A stretch of 37,956 nucleotides of DNA. Origin: a virus. The translations under genes and the position numbers were made by a program. The DNA is taken from positions 1 to 37,956 of the IMG/VR virus record IMGVR_UViG_3300031673_007059; one strand, given 5' to 3'. The notes under the pieces were generated by a model, which saw only the letters and a list, made by a program, of their open reading frames with translations, did no database searches and was not told where the DNA came from. Each line of letters starts with the position of its first letter. Position 1 is the stretch's first letter. Positions 7,975 through 28,773 of this stretch are shown in pieces.

Positions 7975-8636
7975 TGGAAAAGAAATTTAATTTTGTTTAT
8001 GTTATTACTAATAAAGTCAATGGAAAACAGTATGTTGGTGATCATTCTACTGATGAATTGAATGATAATTATTTAGGAAGTGGAACATATATAAAACATG
8101 CAATTAAAAAATATGGAAAAGATTTTTTTTATAAAGAAATAGTAGAACACTTTGAAAATAAGGAAATTGCATTTAACGCGCAAGAAAAATATATTCAAAA
8201 ATATAATACATTAACGCCCAATGGATATAATATAAGTCCATCTGGTGGTTTTTTGAATGGAGGAAATCATTCTAAAGAATCAAGAAAAAAAATAAGTGAA
8301 TCTATGAAAGGAAAAAAACATACTGAAGAACGTTGTGAAAAACAACGAAAATCAATGATAGGCAAAAACAAAGGAAAGATAATGACAGAAGAACAAAAAG
8401 AAAAACTTAGATTATCCAATTTAGGAAAAATTCACAGGGAAGAAACTAAAGAAAAGATGAGTAATTCTCATAAAGGATTATTTAAAGGGTATAAACATAA
8501 TGAAATTTCCAAGAAAAATATGTCTGAGGCTCATAAGGGAATTAAACAAACAGAAGAATCAAAACAGAAAAGATCAGCCGCTTTAAAATTACATTGGGCC
8601 AAAAAGGAATATAATAAGAATAAATATTTAAAATAA
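7974..8636 (+). CDS. GIY-YIG homing endonuclease with NUMOD3 repeats (220 aa)
   Basis: The N-terminus shows a GIY-YIG fold: FVYVITNKVNGKQYVGDHS for the two motif strands, LGSGTYIKHAIKKYG, and Glu in NAQEKYIQKYNT, then NGYNISPSGG. From residue about 100 there are repeated NUMOD3-type motifs (HSKESRKKISESMKGKKH, LGKIHREETKEKMSNSHKG, SKKNMSEAHKGIKQ) that bind DNA. This is the Seg-like architecture of T-even phage homing endonucleases. It starts on the stop codon of the previous gene and ends three bases before the next. Confidence 0.9.
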   Translation: MEKKFNFVYVITNKVNGKQYVGDHSTDELNDNYLGSGTYIKHAIKKYGKDFFYKEIVEHFENKEIAFNAQEKYIQKYNTLTPNGYNISPSGGFLNGGNHSKESRKKISESMKGKKHTEERCEKQRKSMIGKNKGKIMTEEQKEKLRLSNLGKIHREETKEKMSNSHKGLFKGYKHNEISKKNMSEAHKGIKQTEESKQKRSAALKLHWAKKEYNKNKYLK

Positions 8637-9839: not shown

Positions 9840-10232
9840 ATGAGAGCAAAATTTATATGTGAAAAATTTACGCAAGATGGAGACCCGATAAAACAAATGG
9901 GTATTGGAGATAAAGGCCACATTATTAAACAAACACTTGAAAAATTAGCAAGTAAAAACGGATTTAAATTCAATCTTCGTTCAGACTTCGTAGATGAAGA
10001 AGAAATTGAAGAATATGGATATAAAGATGTTAAAATTATAAATAGTTGGTATAAAGAAGGAGAAAAAGATTTTATAGAAATAACATTATATTCATTTAAA
10101 GAAAAAGAAACCGGGGAAATAAAATATGGCATATTCAAATGTTATGAAGATGCTGTAGATATGGGAAATGAAATAGTATGGCCAGATAGTGTTGAATTTA
10201 CTACTGATTATTGGGAAAAAGAAATTTATTAA
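9840..10232 (+). CDS. Small tagged protein (EKF-DGDPI-MGIG leader, 130 aa)
   Basis: The N-terminus MRAKFICEKFTQDGDPIKQM followed by GIG is the shared tag: I-C-E before K-F, then DGDPIxxMGIG. The body (residues 25-130) is charged, with predicted strands and no known domain. The stop overlaps the start of the next tagged gene (TAATG), so the two are translationally coupled and probably came from a duplication of the leader. If a T4-type prohead protease cuts after Glu8, only the first eight residues would be lost. A packaged internal protein is one possibility. Confidence 0.65.
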   Translation: MRAKFICEKFTQDGDPIKQMGIGDKGHIIKQTLEKLASKNGFKFNLRSDFVDEEEIEEYGYKDVKIINSWYKEGEKDFIEITLYSFKEKETGEIKYGIFKCYEDAVDMGNEIVWPDSVEFTTDYWEKEIY

Positions 10233-17451: not shown

Positions 17452-19452
17452 TTAATAATATAAATTTTCTCTTCTCCATTGTTCATCTTCTTCTCTTTCT
17501 CTTTCTTCTCTTTCTCTTTTCTCCTGTGCATACATATATCTTTCATATTCTTCTTGCGCGATTTCAGAATCACATCGTGCGCACAAAACAAAACGAACTT
17601 TATCACTAGATGCACCATAATAGTTAAATCCTCTTTTTGCTAATTCAAGTTCGTTTTCTTCGGATAATTCATTATGATCTTCATCTAATAAAGAACCACA
17701 ATTACCACAAACATAAACTATTTTAGGAAGACCAATGTTCATGTCAGATATAGGATCTGAATCTTCTGTAAATTTTTCATTTATAGATTCTTTAATATAT
17801 TTTAAAAATAAACGCCTATGTTTGTTGCTTATCATATAATCAAAGTTACGTTCATAATCTTCTTTTTTGATATTATCTGCAATTCCGTTTTCTAATAGTG
17901 CTTTAAGACATTTATCGTGTTTATGAAGTGCTTTATGTAATATTGCGTATATGTTTTTTTGTATTTTTTCATTGAGGTTGGGTTTTATTTCATAAAGAAG
18001 TTTTATTAAATCATCTCTATCTTGATCTATACAAGTATATATAATATGTTCATATACGTTATAAAAAATATTTTTCTCTCTATTTTCTTTTTTAATGCCG
18101 AGTTCTTGCAAAATACCATTTACACCGCCAATTCCCATATCACGTATAGGATCTGAGTTTTGTATAAACTTTTCGGATATATTTTGTTCTTGAATTTCAT
18201 TGAAAATACCGTGTCTTTTTACTATAGCCTTATAAACATCAACATAATCAGGTTGAAATAATTTATAATTATTCAAAATTCTATCAATTTCAAACTCTCC
18301 GCGAATTGTTCTACGTTTAGCGTTATAATCTTGAAAATCATCTAATGTAGCTTTATCCATTCCGGATTCATCAGAGGCATATCTCATAATTGTATTATCT
18401 AAAATAGCTAAAATCTCCCATGGTTTATGATCTTCTTCAAGCATCCAATTGATAATTTTTTTCCATTCTTTTTCAGAATATAATTCTGCCTCAAATGAAT
18501 AAAATTTTTTTGACACTTGAAATATTTTATTAATAATACCTATTCCCATATCTTCAATAGGATCTGAATCTTCTGTAAATTTTTCAGATAAAATATTTTT
18601 TGCATTTCCTATTTCTTCTTTTGCAGATATTCGCACGCCTTTTTTTAAATTTTGAGCTAATTCAAGCGAACCTACTAAATTTCTGGGATTGAGTTTTTCT
18701 CCATTAATTGTTACATATTTATTTACATAATCTTTAAGAGCATCATAGTAATATGTTTTCATACTTCCTTGAGTATACGTATCATTAGCCATAACAAACA
18801 CTTTTGGAATTTCATCTTTCTTTAATATATAAGCTAAATTTCTATTTAAAAATTCATAGAATTCTTCTTTATTATTAAAATTATTTGGGCCAAATATACC
18901 TATTCCAAGATCTTTTATAGGATCAGAATCTTGAACAAACTTTTCATTAAGGCTTTCTTTAACAACTTTGTTCTTTTTTTCTTTAGCGATATGATCTTTA
19001 AGGATCTTGACTACATCAACGTGTCCATAGTAACTTGCTAATTGTAAAGCCCAATCACCATCTGCATGCACATCTGCTCCAGCATCTAATAAGAGCTTGA
19101 CTATTTCAGTGTGTCCATTTTCACTTGCAAGGTGTAAAGCATAATCACCATCTGCATGCACATCTGCTCCAGCATCTAATAAGAGCTTGACTATTTCAGT
19201 GTGTCCATTTTCACTTGCAAATCGTAAAGCCCTATCACCATCTTCATGCACATCTACTCCAGCATCTAATAGATACTTAACAAATTCAGTTTTTCCGTGT
19301 CTAGCACAAATACATAAAAGATCTTCTTCTATAAATTCTCGACCAATAGATTTTATCCATTCTTTTATTTTATTTATCATGCCAATGCCCATATCAGCTA
19401 TAGGATCTGAATCTTGAACAAACTTTTCATATAAAGATTCTCTAACTCTCAT
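17452..19452 (-). CDS. Polyprotein-like protein with five (L/I)xE-KF-DSDPI-MGIG tags
   Basis: The tag occurs five times. Glu of the E-K-F core is at residues 11, 172, 292, 429 and 561 (numbered from an ATG six bases upstream; the second ATG at 19452 gives the usual MRVRE start). Each Glu has Leu or Ile two residues before it (LYE, LNE, LSE, ISE, INE), and each is followed by xxDSDPIxD(M/L)GIG or a close variant. Between tags lie different units: ankyrin repeats (about 48-155), two unknown 95-115-residue domains, a helical possibly ankyrin-like unit (445-555), and a Cys4 zinc ribbon (CGNC at 584, CARC at 626) with a charged C-terminal coil. Cleavage after each Glu would give five small proteins of about 107-161 residues. 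Tandem fusion without cleavage is the alternative. Confidence 0.8.
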   Translation of the reverse strand: MRVRESLYEKFVQDSDPIADMGIGMINKIKEWIKSIGREFIEEDLLCICARHGKTEFVKYLLDAGVDVHEDGDRALRFASENGHTEIVKLLLDAGADVHADGDYALHLASENGHTEIVKLLLDAGADVHADGDWALQLASYYGHVDVVKILKDHIAKEKKNKVVKESLNEKFVQDSDPIKDLGIGIFGPNNFNNKEEFYEFLNRNLAYILKKDEIPKVFVMANDTYTQGSMKTYYYDALKDYVNKYVTINGEKLNPRNLVGSLELAQNLKKGVRISAKEEIGNAKNILSEKFTEDSDPIEDMGIGIINKIFQVSKKFYSFEAELYSEKEWKKIINWMLEEDHKPWEILAILDNTIMRYASDESGMDKATLDDFQDYNAKRRTIRGEFEIDRILNNYKLFQPDYVDVYKAIVKRHGIFNEIQEQNISEKFIQNSDPIRDMGIGGVNGILQELGIKKENREKNIFYNVYEHIIYTCIDQDRDDLIKLLYEIKPNLNEKIQKNIYAILHKALHKHDKCLKALLENGIADNIKKEDYERNFDYMISNKHRRLFLKYIKESINEKFTEDSDPISDMNIGLPKIVYVCGNCGSLLDEDHNELSEENELELAKRGFNYYGASSDKVRFVLCARCDSEIAQEEYERYMYAQEKREREEREREEDEQWRRENLYY
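19054..19233. repeat. 90-bp near-exact repeat coding for ankyrin units
   Basis: Two adjacent 90-bp copies, nearly identical in DNA, encode 30-residue ankyrin units (ASENGHTEIVKLLLDAGADV). A typical ankyrin unit has 33 residues, so these are short. A third copy is more diverged. Recent local duplication is the simplest explanation. Confidence 0.8.
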
Positions 19453-19466
19453 GAACATCTTATTTG

Positions 19467-19839: not shown

Positions 19840-19915
19840 TGGAGCGGTATCCCGAATTCGAATCGAGACCTCAACCTTGGAAGGGTCATATGCTACCGTT
19901 GAACACCAATACCGC
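19840..19915 (-). tRNA. tRNA-Gly(TCC)
   Basis: Acceptor GCGGTAT/ATACCGC pairs fully, the anticodon loop is CTTCCAA in stem TGACC/GGTTG, the T-loop is TTCGAAT, and TCCA is encoded at the 3' end. This is a regular cloverleaf. Confidence 0.9.
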
Positions 19916-19922
19916 AAAATTA

Positions 19923-19996
19923 GAGCGCCACAGGGTAATCGAAACCCCATCTGAGCCTTGGCAAGGCCCTATAATACCATTTATACCAATGGCGCT
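19923..19996 (-). tRNA. tRNA-Gly(GCC)
   Basis: Acceptor AGCGCCA/TGGCGCT is perfect, the anticodon loop is TTGCCAA (anticodon GCC) in stem GGGCC/GGCTC, and the T-loop is TTCGATT. One extra base lies between the T-stem and the acceptor. No CCA is encoded. Confidence 0.85.
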
Positions 19997-20014
19997 AATA
20001 TATTTTATATATCA

Positions 20015-20236
20015 TTATTTCCATCGAGTTTTTCTTTGAGACTTCCAATTTCTTTCTCTAACTCGATTTGGTTTACATTTAAGATGTTTATGTTTTCTAC
20101 AATGATTAAACATTGGACAAATTAAACACCTGTCATTATAAGGATCATCATCTACAATAGTAAGTATCTTATACTCTCTTCTATTCGTAGTTTTCTCGAT
20201 TATTTGAGATTTCTTAAGAAAATGAATTCTTTTCAT
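20015..20236 (-). CDS. Small basic Cys/His protein (73 aa)
   Basis: The ATG at 20236 overlaps the stop of the upstream gene (ATGA). The protein has CLICPMFNHCRKHKHLKC, a Cys/His cluster suited to binding one zinc ion, and a basic C-terminus (RERNWKSQRKTRWK). The upstream 57-residue gene has the same plan (Cys cluster, then RSWKDTAKNRKQW), so the two look like diverged paralogues. Nucleic-acid binding is a guess from charge and zinc ligands. Confidence 0.6.
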   Translation of the reverse strand: MKRIHFLKKSQIIEKTTNRREYKILTIVDDDPYNDRCLICPMFNHCRKHKHLKCKPNRVRERNWKSQRKTRWK

Positions 20237-20406
20237 GACCACTGCTTACGATTTTTTGCAGTGTCTTTCCAAGAACGTCTTTTCTTAAACCAACTGTTGC
20301 ATCCTCTATGTGGAGCGCAACGAGGGCAACTTATAAGTTTCAATAGCTCAAATCGAGTATGTTTATACACTCTTCGATTAAGGGTGTTACGATAATTTTC
20401 TTTCAT
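20233..20406 (-). CDS. Small Cys/His protein, likely paralogue of the next gene (57 aa)
   Basis: An ATG at 20406 opens a 57-codon frame with LISCPRCAPHRGCNSW (possible zinc ligands) and a basic C-terminus RSWKDTAKNRKQWS. It is coupled to the following gene through an ATGA overlap. A long palindromic hairpin lies directly before its start codon. Confidence 0.55.
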   Translation of the reverse strand: MKENYRNTLNRRVYKHTRFELLKLISCPRCAPHRGCNSWFKKRRSWKDTAKNRKQWS

Positions 20407-20407
20407 A

Positions 20408-20444
20408 ATGGTCTTTATTTTAGGTTACGTAACCTAAAGACCAT
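20408..20444 (-). promoter_or_regulatory. Long palindromic hairpin before the 20406 gene
   Basis: ATGGTCTTT/AAAGACCAT arms enclose the palindrome AGGTTACGTAACCT with a small asymmetric loop. It ends at the base before the start codon, so it may hide the start region, act as a protein operator, or terminate upstream transcription. There is no U-tract, which argues against a plain terminator. Confidence 0.5.
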
Positions 20445-20486
20445 CAAGTATTTTAGTATGTTTCATTTTTATATTATTAACCTAAA

Positions 20487-20723
20487 TTAATTTTGTAATT
20501 CATCTTCAGTAGGATCGTATTGTTCATCATCGGTACCCCATACTGTATTATTTATTTCTTTTGTTAGATTCTGTTTTTCACTTCGTTTTAAAGAACGATA
20601 AGAGCGCTTAATTCCTTCAACAAATCTTTTACGAGATTTCGTATCATCGAAATCTGATTTCATACCCTCTCGTTTTTCGCGTTTAAGATCTTTTCTTTTC
20701 TGTTTATAGTTCTTTGCTTTCAT
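20487..20723 (-). CDS. Small, highly basic protein (78 aa)
   Basis: MKAKNYKQKRKDLKREKREG at the N-terminus is extremely Lys/Arg-rich, while the C-terminus is acidic (DDEQYDPTEDELQ). The ATG at 20723 is preferred; an upstream ATG at 20732 lies in the same frame. No family is recognised. It overlaps the 3' end of the upstream 53-residue gene. Confidence 0.5.
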   Translation of the reverse strand: MKAKNYKQKRKDLKREKREGMKSDFDDTKSRKRFVEGIKRSYRSLKRSEKQNLTKEINNTVWGTDDEQYDPTEDELQN

Positions 20724-20865
20724 CCAAATCATCTTTGCTTATTTCTTCCGATAATTCCCATGCGTGTCTCAGATAATGTATATATGTTTTATGTATTTTA
20801 GATTTACGATATCCAGTAAGATATAAAAGCATCATAAAATTATTAATAATCTTTAGAAGTTTCAT
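20704..20865 (-). CDS. Small hypothetical protein (53 aa)
   Basis: The frame MKLLKIINNFMMLLYLTGYR...KDDLDESKEL begins two bases before the stop region of the RNA ligase gene and overlaps the next gene by about 20 bases, as is common in compact phage operons. It has an amphipathic or hydrophobic N-terminus. Function unknown. Confidence 0.45.
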   Translation of the reverse strand: MKLLKIINNFMMLLYLTGYRKSKIHKTYIHYLRHAWELSEEISKDDLDESKEL

Positions 20866-20866
20866 T

Positions 20867-21499
20867 TTATTCTATATTATTATTTTCACCATATAATTCT
20901 CTGACTTTATTAAGCCATTCTTGAGTTTTAACTTTAACCATAAAAACTTTATTTTCTTTTGTTCCCTTAAATACTACTCCTTCTTTTAATTTATATTCAT
21001 TAGATATCACGTTATTAATTATTTTTCTATCTAAAAATCCCTGATAAATAACTCTTGGAATATCTAAATGTTCAAAGGTATCAATAAAATCTCCCGGTTT
21101 AAGAAAATCTTTTTTGTACAAGAACATATCAAAAATAATCAAATCAAGTTCTTCATTCCAATTATGCTGTCCGGCAAAAGAATTTTTTCCAAAAAACTCT
21201 CCATATACAGTTATAATATCTATTCCTTTAAATATTTTATTTTCACGAAATATTTTATTTAAATGTTCTGAATATTTTTCTTCGAAAATATCAATTGCTT
21301 TACAAAAAGGATTTGAAGCATGTTTAATCATTTCTGTACGAGTTCCGAATTTTTTAAATCCATTTGTAAAATGACTTTTTTTCGAAAGTTTTTGATTCCA
21401 TTCAGCACGAAAATTAGATCCATCAATTTTATCGAATCCATATACATACTGACCTATATAATCATTTATATTTTTTTCTATAGAATGATAAGATTTCAC
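20867..21499 (-). CDS. RNA ligase, Rnl2-type nucleotidyltransferase (210 aa)
   Basis: Nucleotidyltransferase motifs occur in order: motif I FDKIDGSNFR (catalytic Lys24), motif III VYGEFFG, motif IIIa LIIFDMFL, motif IV KEGVVFKG and motif V VKVKTQEW. KxDGSN in place of KxDG-R is typical of Rnl2-like RNA ligases, which seal 3'-OH/5'-phosphate breaks in duplexed RNA. At 210 residues it has only the adenylation core and lacks the C-terminal domain of T4 Rnl2 (334 residues). The GTG start overlaps the upstream stop (GTGA). It lies on the same strand as the tRNA array about 1.2 kb away, so tRNA repair or maturation is a reasonable but unproven role. Confidence 0.85.
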   Translation of the reverse strand: MKSYHSIEKNINDYIGQYVYGFDKIDGSNFRAEWNQKLSKKSHFTNGFKKFGTRTEMIKHASNPFCKAIDIFEEKYSEHLNKIFRENKIFKGIDIITVYGEFFGKNSFAGQHNWNEELDLIIFDMFLYKKDFLKPGDFIDTFEHLDIPRVIYQGFLDRKIINNVISNEYKLKEGVVFKGTKENKVFMVKVKTQEWLNKVRELYGENNNIE

Positions 21500-21801
21500 G
21501 TTATTTTTCTTTCTGCTCTACTTAAAATTTTTTGATAACGTTCAATACGTTTAGTCTTAAAATCTACGTCTATTTGGATTTTTTGTATTTTTTCTTTTAA
21601 CCATTTAACCGGAGGAGATAAAACTTCTTTATATCCACAAGAATAATGAGTATTTAATCCTCCGCTACGCGTTTTTGCCCAGTGTGCGCAATATTCTTTT
21701 ATATGTTCATCTGTTTCGTATTCTTCATCACTGAATTCAAAAAAATCTTCAGAATAAATTTGAGCTGAACCGCTTTTCTTCCAAAATCTAAACCATGCCA
21801 T
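21496..21801 (-). CDS. Hypothetical protein coupled to RNA ligase (101 aa)
   Basis: The protein begins MAWFRFWKKSGSAQIYSEDF, has an acidic middle with Cys/His residues (IKEYCAHWAKTRSGGLNTHY then SCGY), and a C-terminal coiled-coil-like helix (WLKEKIQKIQIDVDFKTKRI). Its TGA overlaps the GTG of the RNA ligase gene, so the two are co-translated. Not recognised. Confidence 0.6.
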   Translation of the reverse strand: MAWFRFWKKSGSAQIYSEDFFEFSDEEYETDEHIKEYCAHWAKTRSGGLNTHYSCGYKEVLSPPVKWLKEKIQKIQIDVDFKTKRIERYQKILSRAERKIT

Positions 21802-21812
21802 AATAATAAATT

Positions 21813-22577
21813 TTATTTTAATAATTTCATTAAAAGAGTGTCTTTTTCTTGTTTTCCTACGAGTGTACTAACATTATCAACGTTTGTAAAAAATGTATCA
21901 CCTTGATTGAATCTCATGAGTTCATTCCAATTAATGCTTTCTAACCATTTTTCAAAATACTTATTATATTTATATTCTTCAACAATTTCAATAGTTATCC
22001 AATTTTTAAAAGCTTTAAATGTTTCAGGCATAATTCCTACAAAATCGGTTAATTCTCCAAATTTTGTATCAACTTCATATTCAGCTAATAAATTGTCTTT
22101 TTCATCAAAAAGAGATATTATATCAATAAATTTATTTAACAGAATTATTTCTTCATTCTCTCCTATTTTATAGTTTCTGCTTCCTGTAGTATAATCAGCA
22201 TATTTTAATTTTATTCCTTTCCATCTAAGATATTCATCAATTCTAGAATAATATCCATAACATCCTATTCCTGCAAATAAATTAGAATTACATTTTGAAT
22301 TTTTATCATATGTAGATGCATCTACGAATACGAATATAGAATTTTGTAATGAATGACGAATAGCAGTAATATTTAAACCAGCTATGTGAAGATTTCCGTT
22401 GTTTATTTGTGCTATTACAGGTTTAACAAATCCGGTTCCATCATTCCACATTTTAGTAGAATCAATATATGCCCAATTTTTATATATCGTTAAAGATGCA
22501 ATTTTATTTTTAATAACTCCATTACAAGATTTTCCTTTTTTGTCTATTGCTAATAAATCCCAATTTGAAAGTGCCAT
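21813..22577 (-). CDS. Hypothetical protein (254 aa)
   Basis: A well-formed 254-residue frame starts MALSNWDLLAIDKKGKSCNG. The N-terminal half has beta-rich, repetitive short strands (IASLTIYKNWAYI, PVIAQINNGNLHIAGLNI, SIFVFVDASTYD); the C-terminal half is more helical and acidic. No domain is recognised. It is the first gene of the RNA ligase operon and is preceded by two promoter-like boxes. Confidence 0.65.
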   Translation of the reverse strand: MALSNWDLLAIDKKGKSCNGVIKNKIASLTIYKNWAYIDSTKMWNDGTGFVKPVIAQINNGNLHIAGLNITAIRHSLQNSIFVFVDASTYDKNSKCNSNLFAGIGCYGYYSRIDEYLRWKGIKLKYADYTTGSRNYKIGENEEIILLNKFIDIISLFDEKDNLLAEYEVDTKFGELTDFVGIMPETFKAFKNWITIEIVEEYKYNKYFEKWLESINWNELMRFNQGDTFFTNVDNVSTLVGKQEKDTLLMKLLK

Positions 22578-22605
22578 ATTTTTATGTGGTTAATTAATAA
22601 TTATA

Positions 22606-22613
22606 CAAATATA
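22606..22613 (-). promoter_or_regulatory. Bacteroidetes-like -7 box (TATATTTG)
   Basis: TATATTTG on the minus strand fits the Bacteroidetes sigma -7 consensus TAnnTTTG and lies 28 bases before the ATG at 22577. Similar boxes occur at 23586, 31499, 31780 and (as TATATTTA) 33949. A second, TATATAAAT, box lies upstream at 22639-22647. Confidence 0.45.
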
Positions 22614-22670
22614 ACAAAAATATCTATCAAGAAAAAATATTTATATATTTATTTTATTATAAATATTTAG

Positions 22671-22744
22671 TGACCCGAGAGAGGCTCGAACTCTCAACTT
22701 ACAGCTTAGAAGGCTGTTACTCTATCCAATTGAGTTACCGGGCC
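22671..22744 (-). tRNA. tRNA-Arg(TCT)
   Basis: Acceptor GGCCCGG/TCGGGTC pairs with two wobbles, the anticodon loop is CTTCTAA in stem ACAGC/GCTGT, and the T-loop is TTCGAGC. Regular cloverleaf without encoded CCA. It is the 3'-most gene of the minus-strand array. Confidence 0.88.
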
Positions 22745-22751
22745 AAATTTG

Positions 22752-22831
22752 AACCTCGTATGGGATTCGAACCCATCTTTACAGCTCCTTCTACGAATTC
22801 CAGTTTAGAAGACTGGTACGGCTACCGAGGC
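22752..22831 (-). tRNA. Atypical tRNA-Arg(TCT), apparent D-arm loss and 23-nt variable region
   Basis: The anticodon stem-loop CCAGT-CTTCTAA-ACTGG and T-arm ATGGG-TTCGAAT-CCCAT are perfect. Only eight bases (TAGCCGTA) separate acceptor and anticodon stems, leaving no room for a normal D-arm, while the variable region is 23 nt. The acceptor pairs in 6 of 7 positions (one G-U). It may be a functional truncated tRNA or a pseudogene. Confidence 0.6.
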
Positions 22832-22844
22832 ATATGTTAGTATC

Positions 22845-22918
22845 ACGAATGATACTTTTTGTATCATAAAGAATTCATTAAGCTGCTCAAGCAGTTTAAT
22901 GTATCATATATGATACAA
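22845..22918 (-). ncRNA. Inter-tRNA hairpin cluster
   Basis: Between two tRNAs the sequence GTATCA/TGATAC recurs four times in alternating orientation and can form competing hairpins, one closed by a TTCG loop. A strong hairpin CATTAA-A-CTGC-TTGA-GCAG-C-TTAATG lies in the middle. No coding frame is present. It may be a processing or spacer structure. Confidence 0.4.
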
Positions 22919-22923
22919 TTTTG

Positions 22924-22995
22924 TACCCCCGAGAGGATTCGAACCCCCATCTCAAGATCCGTAGTCTTGTGTTCTATCCATTGAACTACAAGGGC
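22924..22995 (-). tRNA. tRNA-Arg(ACG)
   Basis: Anticodon loop CTACGGA in stem CAAGA/TCTTG gives anticodon ACG; the acceptor GCCCTTG/CGGGGGT pairs with wobbles, and the T-loop is TTCGAAT. Regular cloverleaf. Confidence 0.88.
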
Positions 22996-23001
22996 ATTTT
23001 G

Positions 23002-23085
23002 GGTGGAAGGCGAGAGTCGAACTCGTATGCTCATTAGAGCCTTGATTCACAGTCAAGTCGGGTGCCTTTACCGGTTACAACCACC
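23002..23085 (-). tRNA. tRNA-His(GTG) with extra variable-arm hairpin
   Basis: Anticodon loop CTGTGAA in stem CTTGA/TCAAG gives GTG. The extra 5' G opposite C73 is the histidine identity signature. The variable region holds an additional hairpin GCTC-TAAT-GAGC, which class I tRNAs such as tRNA-His do not normally have. The acceptor has two T-T mismatches. Confidence 0.75.
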
Positions 23086-23090
23086 ATATT

Positions 23091-23270
23091 CTATTGTGTT
23101 TTCAAAAAACGTATTTTAATCTCTTTTCCTTCTTCAGTTTTAGATTTAATGTATATAAAAGCTTCTTCTTTTTCAATACTTTCATATACTGCACTATTTT
23201 CCATGTTAATAACTATTTCACCGTTCAATTCTACAGCCGCTTTAACTTTTTCAGACAATTTTAGTTCCAT
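23091..23270 (-). CDS. Small hypothetical protein (59 aa)
   Basis: MELKLSEKVKAAVELNGEIV and following residues form a compact charged alpha/beta-like protein. It overlaps the stop of the upstream gene by one base (TAATG), one of three coupled small genes lying within the tRNA array. Confidence 0.5.
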   Translation of the reverse strand: MELKLSEKVKAAVELNGEIVINMENSAVYESIEKEEAFIYIKSKTEEGKEIKIRFLKTQ

Positions 23271-23449
23271 TATTTTTTTCTGTTTTCTTTTAAGAATTTT
23301 TTTAATTTTTTCTCATTTTTTAATAACTTATTTGCTTTTAACGTTATTTTATGAATAGCTTTCTTATTAGTTAATATTTCTAAAAGACCTTTCAAAAATA
23401 AAATTTCTCCATCTTTTGATAATTTTTTCATAACTTTATTTATCTTCAT
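23270..23449 (-). CDS. Small, Lys-rich protein (59 aa)
   Basis: MKINKVMKKLSKDGEILFLK begins a very basic, helical 59-residue protein ending KKFLKENRKK. It overlaps both neighbours, which supports translation. Function unknown. Confidence 0.5.
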   Translation of the reverse strand: MKINKVMKKLSKDGEILFLKGLLEILTNKKAIHKITLKANKLLKNEKKLKKFLKENRKK

Positions 23450-23567
23450 TTTTTACTTGTTCTTGAGCTTTCTTAATATTTTCTTGTTCAAGAAGATAAT
23501 CAGCAATAATTTTTTGATTTTTCTTAAATCTTCTAAGCGCTCTATCAAATTTTCTTTTCGAAATCAT
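23436..23567 (-). CDS. Small basic helical protein (43 aa)
   Basis: MISKRKFDRALRRFKKNQKI and the following residues form a short charged helix. It is the first of three overlapping small genes; a TATATTTG box lies 19 bases upstream of its start, supporting its expression. Confidence 0.45.
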   Translation of the reverse strand: MISKRKFDRALRRFKKNQKIIADYLLEQENIKKAQEQVKNEDK

Positions 23568-23585
23568 GGTATATTTATATTTATA

Positions 23586-23593
23586 CAAATATA
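23586..23593 (-). promoter_or_regulatory. Bacteroidetes-like -7 box (TATATTTG)
   Basis: TATATTTG lies upstream of the three-gene mini-operon, preceded by ATTTGTCAAGTATTTTGAT, which may contain a TTG-type -33 element. The spacing is shorter than usual. Confidence 0.4.
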
Positions 23594-23634
23594 ATCAAAA
23601 TACTTGACAAATAAAAATGTTTTGCTATAAATTG

Positions 23635-23716
23635 TACCGACGACAGGATTCGAACCTGTGAGGCTAAAAGCCAAGGGATATGAGCCCTCTCCGATTGACC
23701 ACTCTGACACATCGGT
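23635..23716 (-). tRNA. Class II tRNA with CAT anticodon
   Basis: Acceptor ACCGATG/CGTCGGT, T-arm ACAGG-TTCGAAT-CCTGT, and a long variable arm GGCT-TTT-AGCC are clear. The anticodon loop CTCATAT in stem GAGGG/CCCTT reads CAT. Class II tRNAs are normally Leu, Ser or Tyr, so a Met/Ile2-type anticodon on this body is anomalous. Confidence 0.75.
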
Positions 23717-23720
23717 ATAA

Positions 23721-23767
23721 AAGGCACATTCTAAGCGCCCTGTTCTTATGAGAAGGGGAATGTGCAT
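23721..23767 (-). ncRNA. Inter-tRNA hairpin element
   Basis: An 8-bp closing stem GCACATTC/GAATGTGC encloses CCC...GGG and TTCT-CATA-AGAA pairings. There is no tRNA T-loop. It sits between two tRNA genes with no coding frame. Confidence 0.5.
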
Positions 23768-23772
23768 GTTAG

Positions 23773-23851
<79 letters not shown>

Positions 23852-23855
23852 TATG

Positions 23856-23931
23856 TAGAAGGTGAGGAAGTCGAATCCCCGATCTCTTGTATGTAACACA
23901 AGTGCTTTAAAACCAACTAAGCGAACCTTCC
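23856..23931 (-). tRNA. tRNA-Val(TAC)
   Basis: Anticodon loop GTTACAT in stem CTTGT/ACAAG; acceptor GGAAGGT/ACCTTCT; T-arm GGGGA-TTCGACT-TCCTC. The D-loop is somewhat long. Confidence 0.85.
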
Positions 23932-23933
23932 AT

Positions 23934-24007
23934 TGGTAGCGACTGATGGACTTGAACCACCAACCCTCCCCTTCAACGGGGACACTCTTTCTCTGAGCTA
24001 AGTCGCA
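23934..24007 (-). tRNA. tRNA, isotype unclear (six-base anticodon loop)
   Basis: T-arm GGTGG-TTCAAGT-CCATC, D-stem GCTC/GAGT and encoded CCA support a tRNA. The anticodon arm TCCCC-GTTGAA-GGGGA has a six-base loop, and the D-loop lacks the usual GG. Position 1:72 is a T-T mismatch. TGA, TTG or GAA could be the anticodon depending on register. Confidence 0.65.
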
Positions 24008-24010
24008 GAA

Positions 24011-24043
24011 CATTAAGTCTTATTACGTAATTATTTCTTAATG
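24011..24043 (-). ncRNA. Inter-tRNA hairpin
   Basis: CATTAAG/CTTAATG forms a 7-bp stem with a 19-base loop that itself contains the palindrome ATTACGTAAT. It lies between tRNA genes. Confidence 0.35.
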
Positions 24044-24067
24044 TAAGTACACCTTCCGATGTAAATG

Positions 24068-24153
24068 TGGGTCTACTCGGACTCGAACCGAGATTACACT
24101 TCACGTCTCCACTTTGTAAGAGTGGGATGTTGATCCAATTACACTATAGACCC
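24068..24153 (-). tRNA. tRNA-Val(TAC) with extended variable region
   Basis: Acceptor GGGTCTA/TAGACCC and T-arm CTCGG-TTCGAGT-CCGAG are perfect, and the anticodon loop CTTACAA in stem CCACT/AGTGG gives TAC. The variable region is about 16 nt, far longer than in a normal tRNA-Val. The 5' end overlaps the stop region of the endonuclease gene by ten bases. Confidence 0.75.
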
Positions 24154-24824
24154 TGTTGTTTTAATTCTTTTAAATTATAAATTATTTTGTAGGTTAAATT
24201 ATTCTTCTCGTAAATTTTTAATTTATCTAACCAATATTGATAATCATTTCCTAACCATTCTTTTTTCTTCTCTCTATTTATCCCGTCTAATTCAATCCAT
24301 AAATCCTTTTCAATTATATAAATGTCACTTACTTTGGAACTATTAGGAATATGTTTGTGAGCAATAAACTTTATATTATTTTGTTCAAGCCATTCAAAAC
24401 ATTGTTTTTCTAAATTAGATTGAAACTTTATTCCATTTTTTGTTATGCCATGATTTCCAAATCCACCCTTACGTCCAATATCTCTTAGACGTTTTCTTTT
24501 TTCTACATCTTTATATGTGTTTTTTAACGCAGTACTTAAATTAAGAATATATTCGGGATCTTTCATTTTTAATTTTCTTGCACATGAAACAGAACAGCAT
24601 TTTTGATGTCTTTTATTCCAACGAATTGTAAACGTTTTTCCACATTCAACACAAGTTTTTTCAATATCTTTGTGGGCATTTCCTTGAATTTTTTTACTTA
24701 CCTTTTCGTTTATTTCTTTTCTTTTAGCTTTTGTACTAAAACCTCGAGAACATTTTTTAGAGCAAAATCTGCCTGACGCATAATTTCCGTCGTGATCTTT
24801 TCCGCAATTTTCACATTTTTTCAT
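24144..24824 (-). CDS. Zinc-finger homing-type endonuclease with PD-(D/E)xK/Vsr-like core (226 aa)
   Basis: Two Cys4-type fingers (CENCGK...FCSKKCSRG at 4-26 and CVECGKTF...CCSVSCARK at 58-85) precede a C-terminal domain with SNLEKQCFEWLEQNNIKF, VSDIYIIEKDLWIELDG and REKKKEW. This pattern (Glu, then Asp and ELDG) resembles Vsr/EDxHD-type nuclease cores of phage homing endonucleases. It lies within the tRNA array, overlapping the 5' end of tRNA-Val, with its own TATATAAAA box and a tRNA 5'-half just upstream, as if it had inserted into a tRNA gene. Confidence 0.75.
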   Translation of the reverse strand: MKKCENCGKDHDGNYASGRFCSKKCSRGFSTKAKRKEINEKVSKKIQGNAHKDIEKTCVECGKTFTIRWNKRHQKCCSVSCARKLKMKDPEYILNLSTALKNTYKDVEKRKRLRDIGRKGGFGNHGITKNGIKFQSNLEKQCFEWLEQNNIKFIAHKHIPNSSKVSDIYIIEKDLWIELDGINREKKKEWLGNDYQYWLDKLKIYEKNNLTYKIIYNLKELKQQGL

Positions 24825-24834
24825 GGTTGTTTTA

Positions 24835-24843
24835 TTTTATATA
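24835..24843 (-). promoter_or_regulatory. TATATAAAA box before the endonuclease gene
   Basis: TGAATATATAAAATAAAA lies just upstream of the ATG at 24824. Nearly the same TGAATATATAAAA block precedes the genes at 26703 and 28305. Confidence 0.45.
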
Positions 24844-24859
24844 TTCATGAAAAAATTTG

Positions 24860-24908
24860 AACTTATGACTTTTAGAGTGCTACTGAACCAGCTGAGCTAA
24901 AGGAGCAT
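24860..24908 (-). pseudogene. 5' half of a tRNA (acceptor and D-arm), decayed 3' part
   Basis: GCTCCTTTAGCTCAGCTGGT is a typical tRNA 5' end (acceptor strand, T8-A9, D-stem and GG in the D-loop). The anticodon arm is not recognisable (ACTCTAAAAGT) and no 3' strand AAGGAGC follows; a weak T-loop-like TTCAAAT is present. The endonuclease promoter begins right after it. Confidence 0.55.
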
Positions 24909-24997
24909 AAGAGTAAAGTAAGTGAGCAAACCCATGTGGATACTCAGAGATTACCACGGCCGTATAAGCTCTTTAGACACTAAAGGGACCTTACTCT
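24909..24997 (-). ncRNA. Inter-tRNA multi-hairpin RNA element
   Basis: AGAGTAA/TTACTCT closes an 89-nt region containing CTTTAG-TGT-CTAAAG, GAGC/GCTC and GTGG/CCAC helices and a possible CCC/GGG pseudoknot. There is no T-loop or open frame. Confidence 0.45.
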
Positions 24998-25002
24998 AAT
25001 AG

Positions 25003-25078
25003 TGGAAACGAAGGGAATCGAACCCTCCACGTGGACATTGCAAATGTCTACCGCCATAGCCTTGGTACATGCGTCCCC
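25003..25078 (-). tRNA. tRNA-Ala(TGC)
   Basis: Anticodon loop TTTGCAA gives TGC. The acceptor GGGGACG/CGTTTCC contains G3-U70, the alanine identity pair, and A73. The D-stem TACC/GGTA is preceded by four rather than two linker bases. Confidence 0.75.
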
Positions 25079-25141
25079 ATTTTAAATTTTCTACGCATTG
25101 ATTGCAGGGTTCATCTATGAAAATTCTAAACAGTAAGACCT

Positions 25142-25204
25142 AGTGATGGAGAAAGGATTCGAACCTCTCCGAACTGCGCGCATTGTTCACCAATTTCCAT
25201 CATA
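25142..25204 (-). tRNA. tRNA-like element, no normal D-arm or anticodon arm
   Basis: A 6-bp acceptor GATGGA/TCCATC and T-arm AGAGG-TTCGAAT-CCTTT are clear, but only about 25 bases lie between the acceptor 5' strand and the T-arm, forming at best a TGAAC/GTTCG stem with a ten-base loop (AATGCGCGCA). Probably degenerate or a non-decoding tRNA mimic. Confidence 0.4.
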
Positions 25205-25234
25205 AACTGAGAAAATTACCTTGAGTATTTTTAG

Positions 25235-25316
25235 CGTGCTGCCATTACACTAATCCCCTATGTAACTTGGAAGGGGACTGAGGATTCGAACCTCAACTAC
25301 TCGCATGGAAGGCGAA
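25235..25316 (-). tRNA. Circularly permuted tRNA-Gly(TCC)
   Basis: On the minus strand the 3' part comes first (25316-25268): anticodon arm TTCGC-CTTCCAT-GCGAG, T-arm TGAGG-TTCGAAT-CCTCA, acceptor GTCCCCT and encoded TCCA. An 8-nt linker AGTTACAT follows, then the 5' part (25259-25235): acceptor AGGGGAT, TA, D-arm GTGT-AATGGCA-GCAC and G26. The two acceptor strands pair at all seven positions (one wobble). Joined after base 26, they give a complete cloverleaf. No other matching 5' or 3' half lies on the outer sides. The layout equals that of permuted tRNA genes known from some red and green algae. Confidence 0.65.
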
Positions 25317-25336
25317 GTAACTCGCTGGTTTACTAC
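25313..25336 (-). repeat. 24-nt hairpin repeat, copy 1
   Basis: On the plus strand this reads CGAAGTAACT-N7-TTACTAC, with AGTAA/TTACT able to form a stem. Copies of identical length lie at 27298-27321 and 29083-29106. This copy abuts the permuted tRNA. Confidence 0.6.
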
Positions 25337-25342
25337 AGTTTG

Positions 25343-25420
25343 TCGGCAGAGTGGGAGTCGAACCCACATTTGCAACCAGTTACCTTGGTCGTGTGTATCA
25401 GACACGCTGGATATCTGCCG
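25343..25420 (-). tRNA. tRNA-Ile(GAT), apparent D-arm loss with hairpin in variable region
   Basis: Acceptor CGGCAGA/TCTGCCG, anticodon arm CGTGT-CTGATAC-ACACG and T-arm GTGGG-TTCGACT-CCCAC are all perfect. Only seven bases (TATCCAG) lie where the D-arm should be, and the variable region carries a hairpin ACCA-AGGTAAC-TGGT. An alternative register with TATC/GATA as D-stem leaves no U33. Confidence 0.65.
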
Positions 25421-25425
25421 GTATA

Positions 25426-25506
25426 TTGTTAGATTGAGATTCGAACTCTTATTTCTCCCCTTTTAAGCTGCAGCGCCGGAGTGTTCTACCGTTGAACTAT
25501 CTAACA
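25426..25506 (-). tRNA. tRNA with expanded anticodon arm, isotype unclear
   Basis: Acceptor TGTTAGA/TCTAACA and D-arm GTTC-AACGGTA-GAAC are perfect. The anticodon stem CTCC/GGAG encloses 19 bases, as if ten extra bases (GGCGCTGCAG) were inserted before a loop CTTAAAA. The T-stem is weak (3 bp). Its first 27 bases recur at 26749-26775. Confidence 0.6.
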
Positions 25507-26313
25507 ATTTTTATTTTTTAATGCTTCATGTAATGCTATTTTCTTTCTTGTTATGATTGATTTAGGCAAATATTTTAAAGCCAATTCTCTTTCCATTTTT
25601 TTATCAATTCTTTCTCTAAAGGACATTTTTCTCATAAAATCAATCAATTCTTCAGAAAATAAAGGACTATAAAATTTAACATTTAAAATCTTTCCAATAT
25701 ATAACAATGGATCAATTTGTTTTGAATTTATAGTTTCAATATAATATTCCCATACAGCATTATAATCTTTTTCTTGTGATTTTTCTTTATATAAAAAATC
25801 TCTAAACCCCATATCAGCCATTTCTTGTAAATGCTCTTTTGGTCTTGGATGTATTTCATTAAAAGATTTAATTATTCCATTTTCTTTATGTCCTAAAGGA
25901 TATTTATGAAGCCAATATCCACCAAAACATTCATCTCCACCATCACCAGTAATTATTATATCACTAAATTTTTTTGCATAACTACTTAAAATAAACCAGT
26001 TAATATTTCCTTCGTGATTATATTTTTTAATTTTATTATATTTATTAAGAAATTTATTAAATTCTGTATCAGAAATAATAATTTCATTATGCTTTGTTTT
26101 AAATAATTTTGCAATTTCCTGGGCAGAAATTGTATCTTGATTTTCTATTCTTGCTAAGCAAAATGTTGAAATTGGTATTTCAGGATAGATTTTTCTAAGA
26201 AGTGCTAATACAAGTGAACTATCTAGCCCACCAGAAAGAAAAAAAGAGAGTGGAACTTTTGGAATTTTTTTTATATTTTGAATAATTATGTCTTCTAATT
26301 TTTGAATTATCAT
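25501..26313 (-). CDS. Asparagine-synthetase-like ATP-PPi enzyme lacking the glutaminase domain (270 aa)
   Basis: The protein begins near the synthetase domain of AsnB: the PP-loop SGGLDSSLVLALL (residues 26-38), then FCLARIENQDT, ITGDGGDECFGGYW and the C-terminal FYSPLFSEELIDFM...LPKSIITRKK. These motifs activate aspartate by adenylation. The N-terminal glutamine amidotransferase domain, with its Cys2 nucleophile, is absent, so the enzyme would have to use ammonia or a partner. Related enzymes modify other carboxylates, so Asn synthesis is not certain. It lies between a tRNA and a partial copy of that tRNA, and its stop codon is inside the tRNA 5' end. Confidence 0.75.
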   Translation of the reverse strand: MIIQKLEDIIIQNIKKIPKVPLSFFLSGGLDSSLVLALLRKIYPEIPISTFCLARIENQDTISAQEIAKLFKTKHNEIIISDTEFNKFLNKYNKIKKYNHEGNINWFILSSYAKKFSDIIITGDGGDECFGGYWLHKYPLGHKENGIIKSFNEIHPRPKEHLQEMADMGFRDFLYKEKSQEKDYNAVWEYYIETINSKQIDPLLYIGKILNVKFYSPLFSEELIDFMRKMSFRERIDKKMERELALKYLPKSIITRKKIALHEALKNKNC

Positions 26314-26325
26314 TTTATAAAAATA

Positions 26326-26703
26326 TTAATCGTCATGTTTTATTTTTTTCTCTGGTTTCATAATTACTGCACATTCTTCTTTTCCAAGTTTTTGAATTTC
26401 AATAGGATATTTATTATTTAAATGATCTAAAACAAAATCCGGAGCTTTTTTAAGATCTTTAATATCAAGAACATGATATAATATCTTTTTATCTTCAACA
26501 TGTTTAGTTTTAAATGACTTTCCCTTTTCATCTTTTTCTAAAAACATAGGACAATGATGAAGAAATTCCATATCATCAATATCATCAGGTTTGTGCATAT
26601 GATGAATCATATAAATCCAATCTTCTTCTGCCTCAGGTATTTTATGCTTATGACCAGTTTCTAATAAATAGTTTTTTAGAGATTCACTTACCATTTTTTT
26701 CAT
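26326..26703 (-). CDS. Hypothetical protein in the asparagine-synthetase module (125 aa)
   Basis: MKKMVSESLKNYLLETGHKH begins the protein; residues 20-60 are His- and Asp-rich (YMIHHMHKPDDIDDMEFLHH). It lies 12 bases upstream of the AsnB-like gene and has its own TATATAAAA box at 26714. Not recognised; the co-transcribed enzyme suggests a related role, but nothing in the sequence shows it. Confidence 0.55.
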   Translation of the reverse strand: MKKMVSESLKNYLLETGHKHKIPEAEEDWIYMIHHMHKPDDIDDMEFLHHCPMFLEKDEKGKSFKTKHVEDKKILYHVLDIKDLKKAPDFVLDHLNNKYPIEIQKLGKEECAVIMKPEKKIKHDD

Positions 26704-26713
26704 AATTTCTTTG

Positions 26714-26722
26714 TTTTATATA
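26714..26722 (-). promoter_or_regulatory. TATATAAAA box before the asparagine-synthetase module
   Basis: TGAATATATAAAAC lies 10 bases before the ATG at 26703, immediately downstream of the partial tRNA copy. Confidence 0.45.
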
Positions 26723-26748
26723 TTCACATAAAAAGTGAATTAATTTTT

Positions 26749-26775
26749 AGTGTTCTACCGTTGAATTATCTAACA
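26749..26775 (-). repeat. Partial tRNA copy (5' half of the tRNA at 25426-25506)
   Basis: Twenty-seven bases match the 5' half (acceptor strand plus D-arm, positions 1-27) of the downstream tRNA with one difference. The two copies bracket the AsnB-like module, as in insertions that rebuild their tRNA target. Confidence 0.8.
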
Positions 26776-26784
26776 AATTTTTAT

Positions 26785-26982
26785 TTAAAGTGATTCTCTT
26801 AATTTTCTACATGTCTCAGAATTACATCTATCATTAAATTTATTACACCATCCAATTGTATTAAATGTTATTGGCTTTTTTGAAAAACAAGCTGGATAAA
26901 CTGTTTCACTTTTTTCTAATTTTTTTTCAGTCCGTGTATCATTGATACAACATTCTTTAAATTGTTCTCTAAATAATTTCAT
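26785..26982 (-). CDS. Small Cys-rich protein (65 aa)
   Basis: MKLFREQFKECCINDTRTEK and later CNKFNDRCNSETCRKL give six to seven Cys residues in 65, suggesting a zinc-binding or disulfide-bonded fold. Not recognised. It sits in the tRNA array between tRNA-Asn and the partial tRNA copy. Confidence 0.5.
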   Translation of the reverse strand: MKLFREQFKECCINDTRTEKKLEKSETVYPACFSKKPITFNTIGWCNKFNDRCNSETCRKLRESL

Positions 26983-27007
26983 TTTGGATAAATTTTTGTT
27001 AAATTTG

Positions 27008-27093
27008 CGTTCCCGGTAGGATTCGAACCTACGATGGTATTTCTACGTCTGCTTAACGGGCAGTGCCTTTCGACCAACTAAGGCAACGGAAAC
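27008..27093 (-). tRNA. tRNA-Asn(GTT)-like with extra variable-arm hairpin
   Basis: Acceptor GTTTCCG/CGGGAAC and T-arm GTAGG-TTCGAAT-CCTAC are good. The anticodon stem CTGC/GCAG holds loop CCGTTAA, reading GTT but with C at position 33. The variable region has GTA-GAAA-TAC, a tetraloop hairpin unexpected in class I tRNAs. Confidence 0.65.
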
Positions 27094-27099
27094 AATTTG

Positions 27100-27248
27100 C
27101 GGGGATTGAGGGATTCGAACCCACGACCAATAGATTAGTGAATGAAGAGAGTTCTGAACTCTTTAACTTCATAAGACTTCATTCAGATTTTTTTAATAGA
27201 ATCACCTATTATACAGTCTACTGCTCTGGCCAACTGAGCTAAATCCCC
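27100..27248 (-). tRNA. tRNA-Asn(GTT) interrupted by a 75-nt intron-like insertion
   Basis: The outer parts form a normal tRNA: acceptor GGGGATT/AATCCCC, D-arm GCTC...GAGC, anticodon stem GTAGA/TCTAT, and T-arm GTGGG-TTCGAAT-CCCTC (one mismatch). Removing 27138-27212 joins CTGT and TAA into loop CTGTTAA, anticodon GTT. The insertion is too short for a group I intron and contains its own stems GAATGAAG/CTTCATTC, AGAGTT-CAG-AACTCT and AATAG/CTATT. Tyr(GTA) is possible with a different junction, but bacterial tRNA-Tyr is class II. Confidence 0.8.
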
Positions 27249-27297
27249 AGAATCTAAGAAACTTGAGAAAAGATATTGTTATGCCCAAAAGTGTACA

Positions 27298-27321
27298 CGA
27301 AGTAACTTTTCTACTTACTAC
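27298..27321 (-). repeat. 24-nt hairpin repeat, copy 2
   Basis: CGAAGTAACT-N7-TTACTAC on the plus strand, lying between tRNA-Asp(GTC) and the intron-containing tRNA-Asn. Confidence 0.6.
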
Positions 27322-27326
27322 AGATT

Positions 27327-27400
27327 TGGCGGAATACGTGGGGTTCGAACCCCTACGTCTCATAGACAGTGAGATATGTTACCATTACACTACGTACTCC
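27327..27400 (-). tRNA. tRNA-Asp(GTC)
   Basis: Acceptor GGAGTAC/GTATTCC, anticodon arm TCTCA-CTGTCTA-TGAGA, T-arm GGGG-TTCGAAC-CCC, discriminator G73 (aspartate identity) and encoded CCA. Regular cloverleaf. Its 5' end overlaps the endonuclease stop. Confidence 0.9.
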
Positions 27401-28305
27401 ATTTCATTTTTTCTTATTTCTTCATCAAACCATACTTCTAATTTATAGCCTTTATTTCTTGTTGCTTGCCACTTTAACTCATCATCATTCTTTTTATATC
27501 CCTTTGTTTCAATATAATAGAATTCTCCCGCATTTTCAAAAACCTTAAAATCTAAAAGATAAGAATGTTCTTTTTTATCTAATCCAATATATTGTATTCT
27601 GTCATTTGTGTATTCCCAATCTTTAATTTTTTGTTCTTCTTTCCATTTATCAAGTATAAAACATGTTCTTAATTCATATGTTCCTTGAACTTTTATATTT
27701 TTATAATTAAACCACTTTGTAGTACCGCCTGCTACATAATTATGTCCATTTGCATATGATTTTTTATTAATAATTGAATATTTTTCAGGATTTTTTTTAA
27801 CATTTTCCAGATATTTTTTATTTGCCATTTTACTATTATTTCTTCTGGCGCATAATACTGAACAAAATTGTTGTTTTATATTTGTTGTATTGAATTCTTC
27901 ATTACACAGCAAACATTTTTTTATATAAATTCTATATTCTTTTGGTTGATAATTCATCTGATTTTTTATAAAACCAGGCGCTTTACCAATTTTTATTAAA
28001 TTTTTTATACTATCACTTGTTTTTTTCTTTGATTCTTCTGTTCTTATATGAGAATTTGCACAACTTCTTGAACAATAATATTTTTCCTTTTTAGGTTCAT
28101 CTGTATCATATTCAGAAATCTGTATTTCTTTATTACATTTGAAACATTTAACTGTAAAGATTTTCCATCTATTTTTAATAGTTTGTTTTTGTTTTTCTAA
28201 TTGTTCTTTAGTTCTTTTTTTACCTTTTTGTTGATGTTTGTTTTGACAACTAACATTACAATATTTATTTTTAACAGGTTTTCCGCAGGTTAAGCATTTA
28301 TTCAT
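27385..28305 (-). CDS. Zinc-finger endonuclease with PD-(D/E)xK core, homing type (306 aa)
   Basis: Three or four Cys-rich fingers occur: CLTCGKPV...YCNVSCQNK (4-24), CFKCNK...YYCSRSCANS (54-84) and CLLCNEEF...FCSVLCARR. The C-terminal domain reads GTYELRTCFILDKW, then YLLDFKVF and YYIETKGY, matching the E...D-x(n)-ExK layout of PD-(D/E)xK nucleases. It is a relative of the gene at 24144. Position within the tRNA array, overlap with tRNA-Asp and its own TGAATATATAAAA promoter block suggest a mobile homing gene. Confidence 0.78.
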   Translation of the reverse strand: MNKCLTCGKPVKNKYCNVSCQNKHQQKGKKRTKEQLEKQKQTIKNRWKIFTVKCFKCNKEIQISEYDTDEPKKEKYYCSRSCANSHIRTEESKKKTSDSIKNLIKIGKAPGFIKNQMNYQPKEYRIYIKKCLLCNEEFNTTNIKQQFCSVLCARRNNSKMANKKYLENVKKNPEKYSIINKKSYANGHNYVAGGTTKWFNYKNIKVQGTYELRTCFILDKWKEEQKIKDWEYTNDRIQYIGLDKKEHSYLLDFKVFENAGEFYYIETKGYKKNDDELKWQATRNKGYKLEVWFDEEIRKNEMEYVV

Positions 28306-28314
28306 AGTCTTTTA

Positions 28315-28323
28315 TTTTATATA
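28315..28323 (-). promoter_or_regulatory. TATATAAAA box before the endonuclease gene
   Basis: CGTGAATATATAAAATAAAA precedes the ATG at 28305, sharing the TGAATATATAAAA core with the boxes at 24835 and 26714. Confidence 0.45.
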
Positions 28324-28385
28324 TTCACGATATATAGATGAATTGATCCTATAAGTGTTAAATTTTTGTTAATGTTTTTATATCG

Positions 28386-28460
28386 TTCCTCTGATGGGAC
28401 TCGAACCCACATACAAACCTCATTAAGAGTGAGGACCGGCGCCTTTACGGATACAGAGGA
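28386..28460 (-). tRNA. tRNA-Lys(CTT)
   Basis: Acceptor TCCTCTG/CAGAGGA, anticodon arm CCTCA-CTCTTAA-TGAGG, T-arm GTGGG-TTCGAGT-CCCAT. Regular cloverleaf. Confidence 0.9.
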
Positions 28461-28466
28461 TTTTTG

Positions 28467-28520: not shown

Positions 28521-28532
28521 ACTAAAAAACCT

Positions 28533-28608: not shown

Positions 28609-28616
28609 TAATTTTC

Positions 28617-28679: not shown

Positions 28680-28685
28680 AATTTG

Positions 28686-28769: not shown

Positions 28770-28773
28770 AAAG

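Follow-up and report, generated by a model that had tools for sequence, protein, structure and literature searches.

An open reading frame (ORF) of a T4-like phage with a contractile tail carries five copies of a short tag, each preceding a different domain, and probably encodes a polyprotein of head cargo that is drawn into the prohead and cut after the glutamate of each tag by the prohead protease. The DNA analysed here (the window) is the complete IMG/VR record IMGVR_UViG_3300031673_007059, a 37,956-nt fragment of a large phage genome. A preliminary description of this DNA had read the ORF as a polyprotein cut into several effectors. The polyprotein part of that reading gains from a gp21-type protease in relatives, a cleavage triplet shared with head proteins, retention of the cut site in internal tags and the occurrence of the units as separate genes; the effector part fares less well, as only domain 1 belongs to a recognised family.

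The ORF had been placed at 17452-19452 with no strand given. An ORF does lie there, but on the minus strand and with its upper end at 19458; 19452 is a second in-frame ATG, and if that ATG is the start, the leading peptide has nine residues. Counted from the ATG at 19458, which we used for residue numbering, the tag glutamates reported earlier (11, 172, 292, 429 and 561) are the exact P1 positions. The five domains do differ from each other, with measured lengths of 135, 94, 111, 106 and 91 aa (rather than about 95-145 residues). Calculated masses are 78.0 kDa at full length and 1.5 + 17.8 + 13.7 + 16.4 + 15.8 + 12.8 kDa for the predicted pieces, slightly different from the earlier figures of about 77 kDa and about 18, 13, 15, 14 and 12 kDa. 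The single-tag proteins noticed elsewhere in the window, including an ankyrin paralogue at 12512, were confirmed by their tag profile scores. The features are as follows (tag scores in bits are from the tag HMM described below):

17452..19458, minus strand: five-unit tagged ORF, 668 aa plus stop (ORF call, five tag copies)
19426..19458, minus strand: N-terminal targeting-like peptide MFMRVRESLYE, predicted to be removed; fits the first-tag profile
19381..19428, minus strand: tag 1 core, E11-G26, 51.2 bits
18943..19425, minus strand: predicted fragment 1, 17.8 kDa, ankyrin repeats (Pfam Ank_2, 102 bits; cut sites predicted)
18898..18945, minus strand: tag 2 core, E172-G187, 52.1 bits
18583..18942, minus strand: predicted fragment 2, 13.7 kDa, in a 49-unit cargo family (unit clustering; AlphaFold pLDDT 79.7)
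18538..18585, minus strand: tag 3 core, E292-G307, 47.1 bits
18172..18582, minus strand: predicted fragment 3, 16.4 kDa, no relative found by unit clustering
18127..18174, minus strand: tag 4 core, E429-G444, 41.7 bits
17776..18171, minus strand: predicted fragment 4, 15.8 kDa, helical in a low-confidence model, no relative found by unit clustering
17731..17778, minus strand: tag 5 core, E561-G576, 53.2 bits
17455..17775, minus strand: predicted fragment 5, 12.8 kDa, CxxC/CxxC, zinc-ribbon-like (from sequence; single-tag homologues in loci L079 and L043)
9840..10232, plus strand: single-tag ORF, domain without a named family, 44.6 bits
10232..10528, plus strand: single-tag ORF, domain without a named family, 45.6 bits
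12512..12919, plus strand: single-tag ankyrin ORF, 61% identity to unit 1 over 97 aa, 47.3 bits
34216..34626, minus strand: single-tag ORF, domain without a named family, 56.9 bits
17088..17441, plus strand: 117-aa neighbour gene marking a conserved slot (tblastn across loci)

Several other features of the window are recorded here in their own right. Eighteen predicted tRNA genes are clustered at 19840-29381 (minus strand) with ORFs interspersed. Homing-endonuclease-like ORFs, recognised by eye, lie at 5952-6557 and 7974-8636 (plus strand) and at 24144-24824, 27385-28305 and 29433-30032 (minus strand), some of them within the tail-gene run or the tRNA cluster. At 35230-36827 (minus strand) a gene resembling, by eye, nicotinate/nicotinamide phosphoribosyltransferase adjoins a macro-domain-like gene, which suggests NAD metabolism. 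Three proteins have N-termini like the targeting half of the tag and lack the DSDPI part (MRARLINENL, 5581-5934, plus strand; MKARKIIDEKL, 33566-33925, minus strand; MKSKEFIKEGF, 33985-34209, minus strand), and these might be untagged head cargo.

The tag consensus is [ILV]-x-E↓K-F-x-x-[DE]-S-D-P-I-x-D-[ML]-G-I-G (the arrow marks the predicted cut). The five copies in the ORF scored 41.7-53.2 bits against a tag HMM built from 119 tag instances, these five among them. In the genomes searched, 153 stretches scored at least 14 bits, whereas the same 776,175 residues, once reversed or shuffled, gave at most 7.1 and 6.4 bits, respectively, with zero matches at 14. First tags in their ORFs read MK[LI]V[RK]EHINE-KF-T-E-[DE]-S-D-P-I-x-D-M-G-I-G, and there is a shorter variant, M[KR]A[KRQ][FY]I[NY]E. 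Their start has the form of a T4 capsid-targeting sequence (CTS), which is short, N-terminal and closed by [LI]-x-E near residue 10: the consensus MKLVREHINE↓ is equal in length to MKTYQEFIAE↓, with which T4 IPII and IPIII begin (T4 record), and identical to it at residues 1, 2, 6, 8 and 10. The ten-residue T4 CTS sends cargo to the prohead core, processing depends on its residues 8 and 10, and the cut by gp21 falls after L/I-X-E (PMC9026906, PMC9958956). Across the proteins of a 405-kb tagged relative (G001), [ILV]NE is found most often at residue 10.

Internal tags differ from first tags upstream of the cut. Information falls from 1.93 to 0.51 bits at position -7 and from 2.03 to 1.29 bits at position -4, partly as an effect of the anchoring of first tags at the start Met, while P3 [ILV] (2.56 bits), P2 Asn (2.65 bits), P1 Glu (4.25 bits, 99%) and the whole prime side are kept. 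Having lost the targeting residues and kept the cut site, internal tags have the appearance of cut sites derived from a CTS that can now do without its targeting half. We considered and rejected an origin of the tag as a DNA repeat: synonymous codons vary at its invariant residues, even among the five tags of this one ORF, so the tag is maintained as a protein motif and is not a copied DNA repeat. Internal translation starts were also weighed. None of the four internal tags of the ORF has a Met just upstream, and a Met 5-15 residues upstream is found for 84% of first tags vs 20% of internal tags, so that separate initiation is no general explanation.

Being a fragment without head genes, the window lacks genes for protease and capsid; both are known from relatives. 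G001 and a 323-kb relative (G002) encode a gp23-type capsid protein and a gp21 homologue (PF03420; E 2e-17 and 4e-16, respectively). Alignment of T4 gp21 with the protease domain of G001 spans 180 residues (E 8e-12, 25% identity), and the two have in common GEL-x-HP and SSR stretches, which we take to hold the catalytic residues. In T4, protease and scaffold are separate genes (21 and 22), whereas a single 781-aa protein of G001 comprises the protease and a long scaffold-like region. Such protease-scaffold fusions of about 780-800 aa lie at 306661-309021 in G001 and 209369-211762 in G002, both on the minus strand.

Among untagged G001 proteins, enrichment of [ILV]NE is strongest in this fusion (10 sites, p 2e-7). 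The fusion and the capsid protein together contain 13 such triplets vs 1.4 expected (nine-fold), and neither of two control triplets, the scrambled N[ILV]E and the near [ILV]ND, occurs in them at all. The gp23-type capsid proteins have HALNE↓AAMGG near the start, before the conserved shell domain. LNE↓AAMGG resembles the LTE↓AEIGG of T4 at the known site of gp23, which loses 65 residues at processing (PMC9958956); at that place further relatives, Lak among them, show [LM]-[NY]-E. In a MAFFT global alignment the capsid site was not stacked exactly on that of T4, so the correspondence rests on the local motif. Inside cargo, [ILV]NE is not depleted (observed/expected 0.93), which indicates that the triplet alone cannot define a cut site and that accessibility must also matter. 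The capsid and scaffold [ILV]NE sites have no KF...GIG prime-side motif, and neither do the MRAKFINE-type starts of tagless relatives. KF...GIG is thus unnecessary for cutting as such and needs a second function. An untagged 181-aa protein of G001 (157442-157987, minus strand) has five [ILV]NE triplets (p 6e-6) and a similar one is found in G002 at 120990-121619; it is perhaps a further prohead core protein.

Some of these observations could also be read without cleavage. If the tag were an uncut docking motif, its repeats would make the ORF product an intact multivalent binder of capsid, scaffold or other subunits. The stretch after the Glu, which is as conserved as the triplet, equally strong in internal and first tags and missing from the capsid and scaffold cut sites, would suit such a role. 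Docking nonetheless accounts neither for the exact [ILV]-[NY]-E triplet of head protease substrates, with its Glu at 99% in internal tags, nor for the loss of targeting residues from internal copies only, and in T4 such a site within a prohead core protein does get cut (PMC9026906); we regard docking as unlikely. A role apart from the head, in which the tag serves to position or regulate proteins within infected cells (e.g. at a replication site) and its likeness to the CTS is coincidental, seems rather improbable to us as well. Tagged genes are indeed scattered over the genome, mostly far from head genes, and the repeat domains in their products are of a kind typical of protein binding; yet the T4 internal protein genes likewise lie away from the head cluster, and a five-residue match to a T4 CTS of equal length, together with a shared cut triplet, would go unexplained.

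It is very improbable that multi-tag ORFs are functionless accidental fusions of adjacent tagged genes, produced by stop loss or assembly error. In favour of accident, neighbouring tagged genes are often contiguous or overlapping in head-to-tail order, where stop loss would easily fuse them, and internal tags show decay upstream of the cut. Against this, there are 66 multi-tag ORFs with up to eight units on about 31 contigs (counted from contig names), and the P1 Glu and undiminished prime side of internal tags, with synonymous codon differences between copies, point to selection and not to decay. That internal tags are conserved equally with first tags at these positions largely excludes accident.

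As a cleaved head-cargo polyprotein, the tagged ORF would be a multi-unit variant of the T4-type internal head proteins. With IPI-III and Alt the tagged proteins share a ten-residue N-terminal peptide (I8 and E10 in the first-tag consensus), the [LI]-x-E motif and small cargo; a gp21-type protease is encoded by the tagged relative G001. Each T4 internal protein has one CTS, whereas the tagged chains have up to eight sites. Conservation here, unlike in T4 CTS proteins, extends over 15 residues past the cut, a motif that would remain on each fragment.

The ORF also resembles the polyvalent proteins known from phages and conjugative elements, in which several domains share one polypeptide and for which co-delivery with DNA and proteolytic separation have been proposed (PMC5512222). 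In those proteins embedded peptidases are proposed to release the parts, whereas here repeated sites of head-protease type divide the units; Pfam and PHROGs revealed no polyvalent-type embedded peptidase and no ART, ParB-like, lysozyme, DarA-N or other characteristic enzyme domain in the ORF and 120 tagged proteins. Excerpted accounts of phiKZ and SPN3US, which are large phages too, describe a gp21-related protease that trims many packaged, ejected proteins after Glu (S/A-X-E). The propeptides in those excerpts are long, single and cut internally several times, and a repeated tag between cargo domains is not among the features they report.

The units themselves are mostly without recognisable family. 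Domain 1 consists of ankyrin repeats (Pfam Ank_2, 2.7e-29, 102 bits vs a cut-off of 27.3), domains 2-4 matched no Pfam family above cut-off and domain 5 has two CxxC pairs, with homologues that are single genes in relatives. The AlphaFold model of unit 2 is of fair confidence (pLDDT 79.7), and structure comparison with it was unconvincing (best Z 2.5; best viral E 1.6). The full-ORF model is good for units 1 and 5 only, beside which the tags sit in low-confidence linkers, a weak observation in a model that is mostly of low confidence. Ankyrin families were matched by 27 of the 120 tagged proteins, and for the rest Pfam and PHROGs gave almost nothing. With most cargo lacking a recognisable family, domain content does not support an effector role, which we infer from the T4 precedent. 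Another large unit cluster looks leucine-rich-repeat-like by eye. Long proteins at 167662-169563 in G001 and 5103-7295 in L037 (both minus strand) have a nucleotidyltransferase-like N-terminus with LNE/INE triplets of its own and a tag in mid-protein; the L037 protein also matches DUF6267 (1.1e-69).

When tagged proteins were split at their tags, 22 of the 42 clusters of two or more units contained both single-gene and polyprotein members. Single-tag relatives are known for units 1 (ankyrin), 2 and 5 (CxxC/CxxC); unit clustering found none for units 3 and 4. Comparison with related phages, proposed in the preliminary description, showed that units do occur as separate genes at the same slot. 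The five-unit ORF adjoins the 117-aa gene at the end of a tail-gene run. At this slot, L117 and L107 each have a two-unit ORF, that of L117 being colinear with units 1 and 2 (54% and 30% identity), L021 has a lone unit-2-type gene, and L115 and L005 have separate tagged genes in arrays; in some relatives the slot holds no tagged gene. Such a range, from one unit or two units to arrays of separate genes, supports fusion of independent units. To judge from these sequences, units are gained and lost as modules.

The tag is characteristic of a clade of large T4-like phages related to Lak. A degenerate DNA pattern of the tag core matched 97 stretches in viral contigs, and with duplicates removed there are 354 tags in 238 unique ORFs, 66 of which are multi-tag (maximum eight). 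In G001, 88 tags fall in 64 ORFs, and 57 tags were counted in 39.5 kb of a further contig, G004. A polyprotein of this kind, which the preliminary description called unusual for a tailed phage, is indeed so for tailed phages at large, but multi-tag ORFs are common within this clade. Scanning with the tag HMM found no tag in G002, where the only trace of a conserved N-terminal motif was isolated MRAKFINE-like starts. The tag peptide had zero matches among 50,697 GenBank phages. When 84,980 genomes of bacteria and archaea were scanned with the tag pattern, the four matches obtained covered just the short core and scored at most 21 bits; being so limited, they do not name a host. A whole-ORF protein scan of viral contigs returned no relative, probably because cargo diverges quickly, and tblastn of the ORF against GenBank phages yielded generic ankyrin matches only. 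We found no published description of the tag in the literature searched.

Tagged contigs cluster in a tree of the gp6-like baseplate protein, in which many loci are fragmentary, so that loss looks the same as incompleteness. The Lak megaphages are the closest named phages, with 41% identity between their gp6-like protein and that of the window phage (the best protein tested), gp21- and gp23-type genes and the capsid [LM]-[NY]-E. Lak-A2 differs in that the tag is absent from about 442 kb scanned (82%) of its 541-kb genome. No close genome-wide kinship was seen, and the window phage is only a distant relative of the named Lak phages.

Cleavage at the tags, packaging and ejection of fragments are what we infer from these sequences, and the most likely course of events is the following. 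The N-terminal residues of the first tag would direct the chain to the prohead core in the manner of the T4 CTS, and a gp21-type prohead protease would cut after the Glu of every [ILV]-x-E tag site. Cutting would release five proteins of 13-18 kDa inside the head, each starting with the retained KF-x-x-[DE]SDPI-x-D-M-G-I-G. As with IPI-III and Alt of T4, the fragments would remain in the head once it is mature and be delivered into the host together with the DNA. More speculatively, the retained motif may keep small fragments in the head or guide their ejection, which would explain the full copy on every unit.

More broadly, and only tentatively, the tag may belong to a clade-wide cargo-loading system built on T4-style maturation, with tens of proteins per genome, many of them polyproteins of up to eight units, and with one tag uniting a targeting peptide that can be removed, a site for the head protease and a novel motif that stays on the fragments for retention or ejection. 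If this is true, tailed phages would make polyproteins in the style of RNA viruses with their ordinary head protease, and dozens of small proteins could be delivered at once by one virion. The tag would then be a sequence handle for listing candidate head cargo in uncultured phages, and the list of tag-bearing proteins a ready set of uncharacterised early-infection proteins. The spread of targeting signals between genes and the retention of small products in the prohead would become testable.
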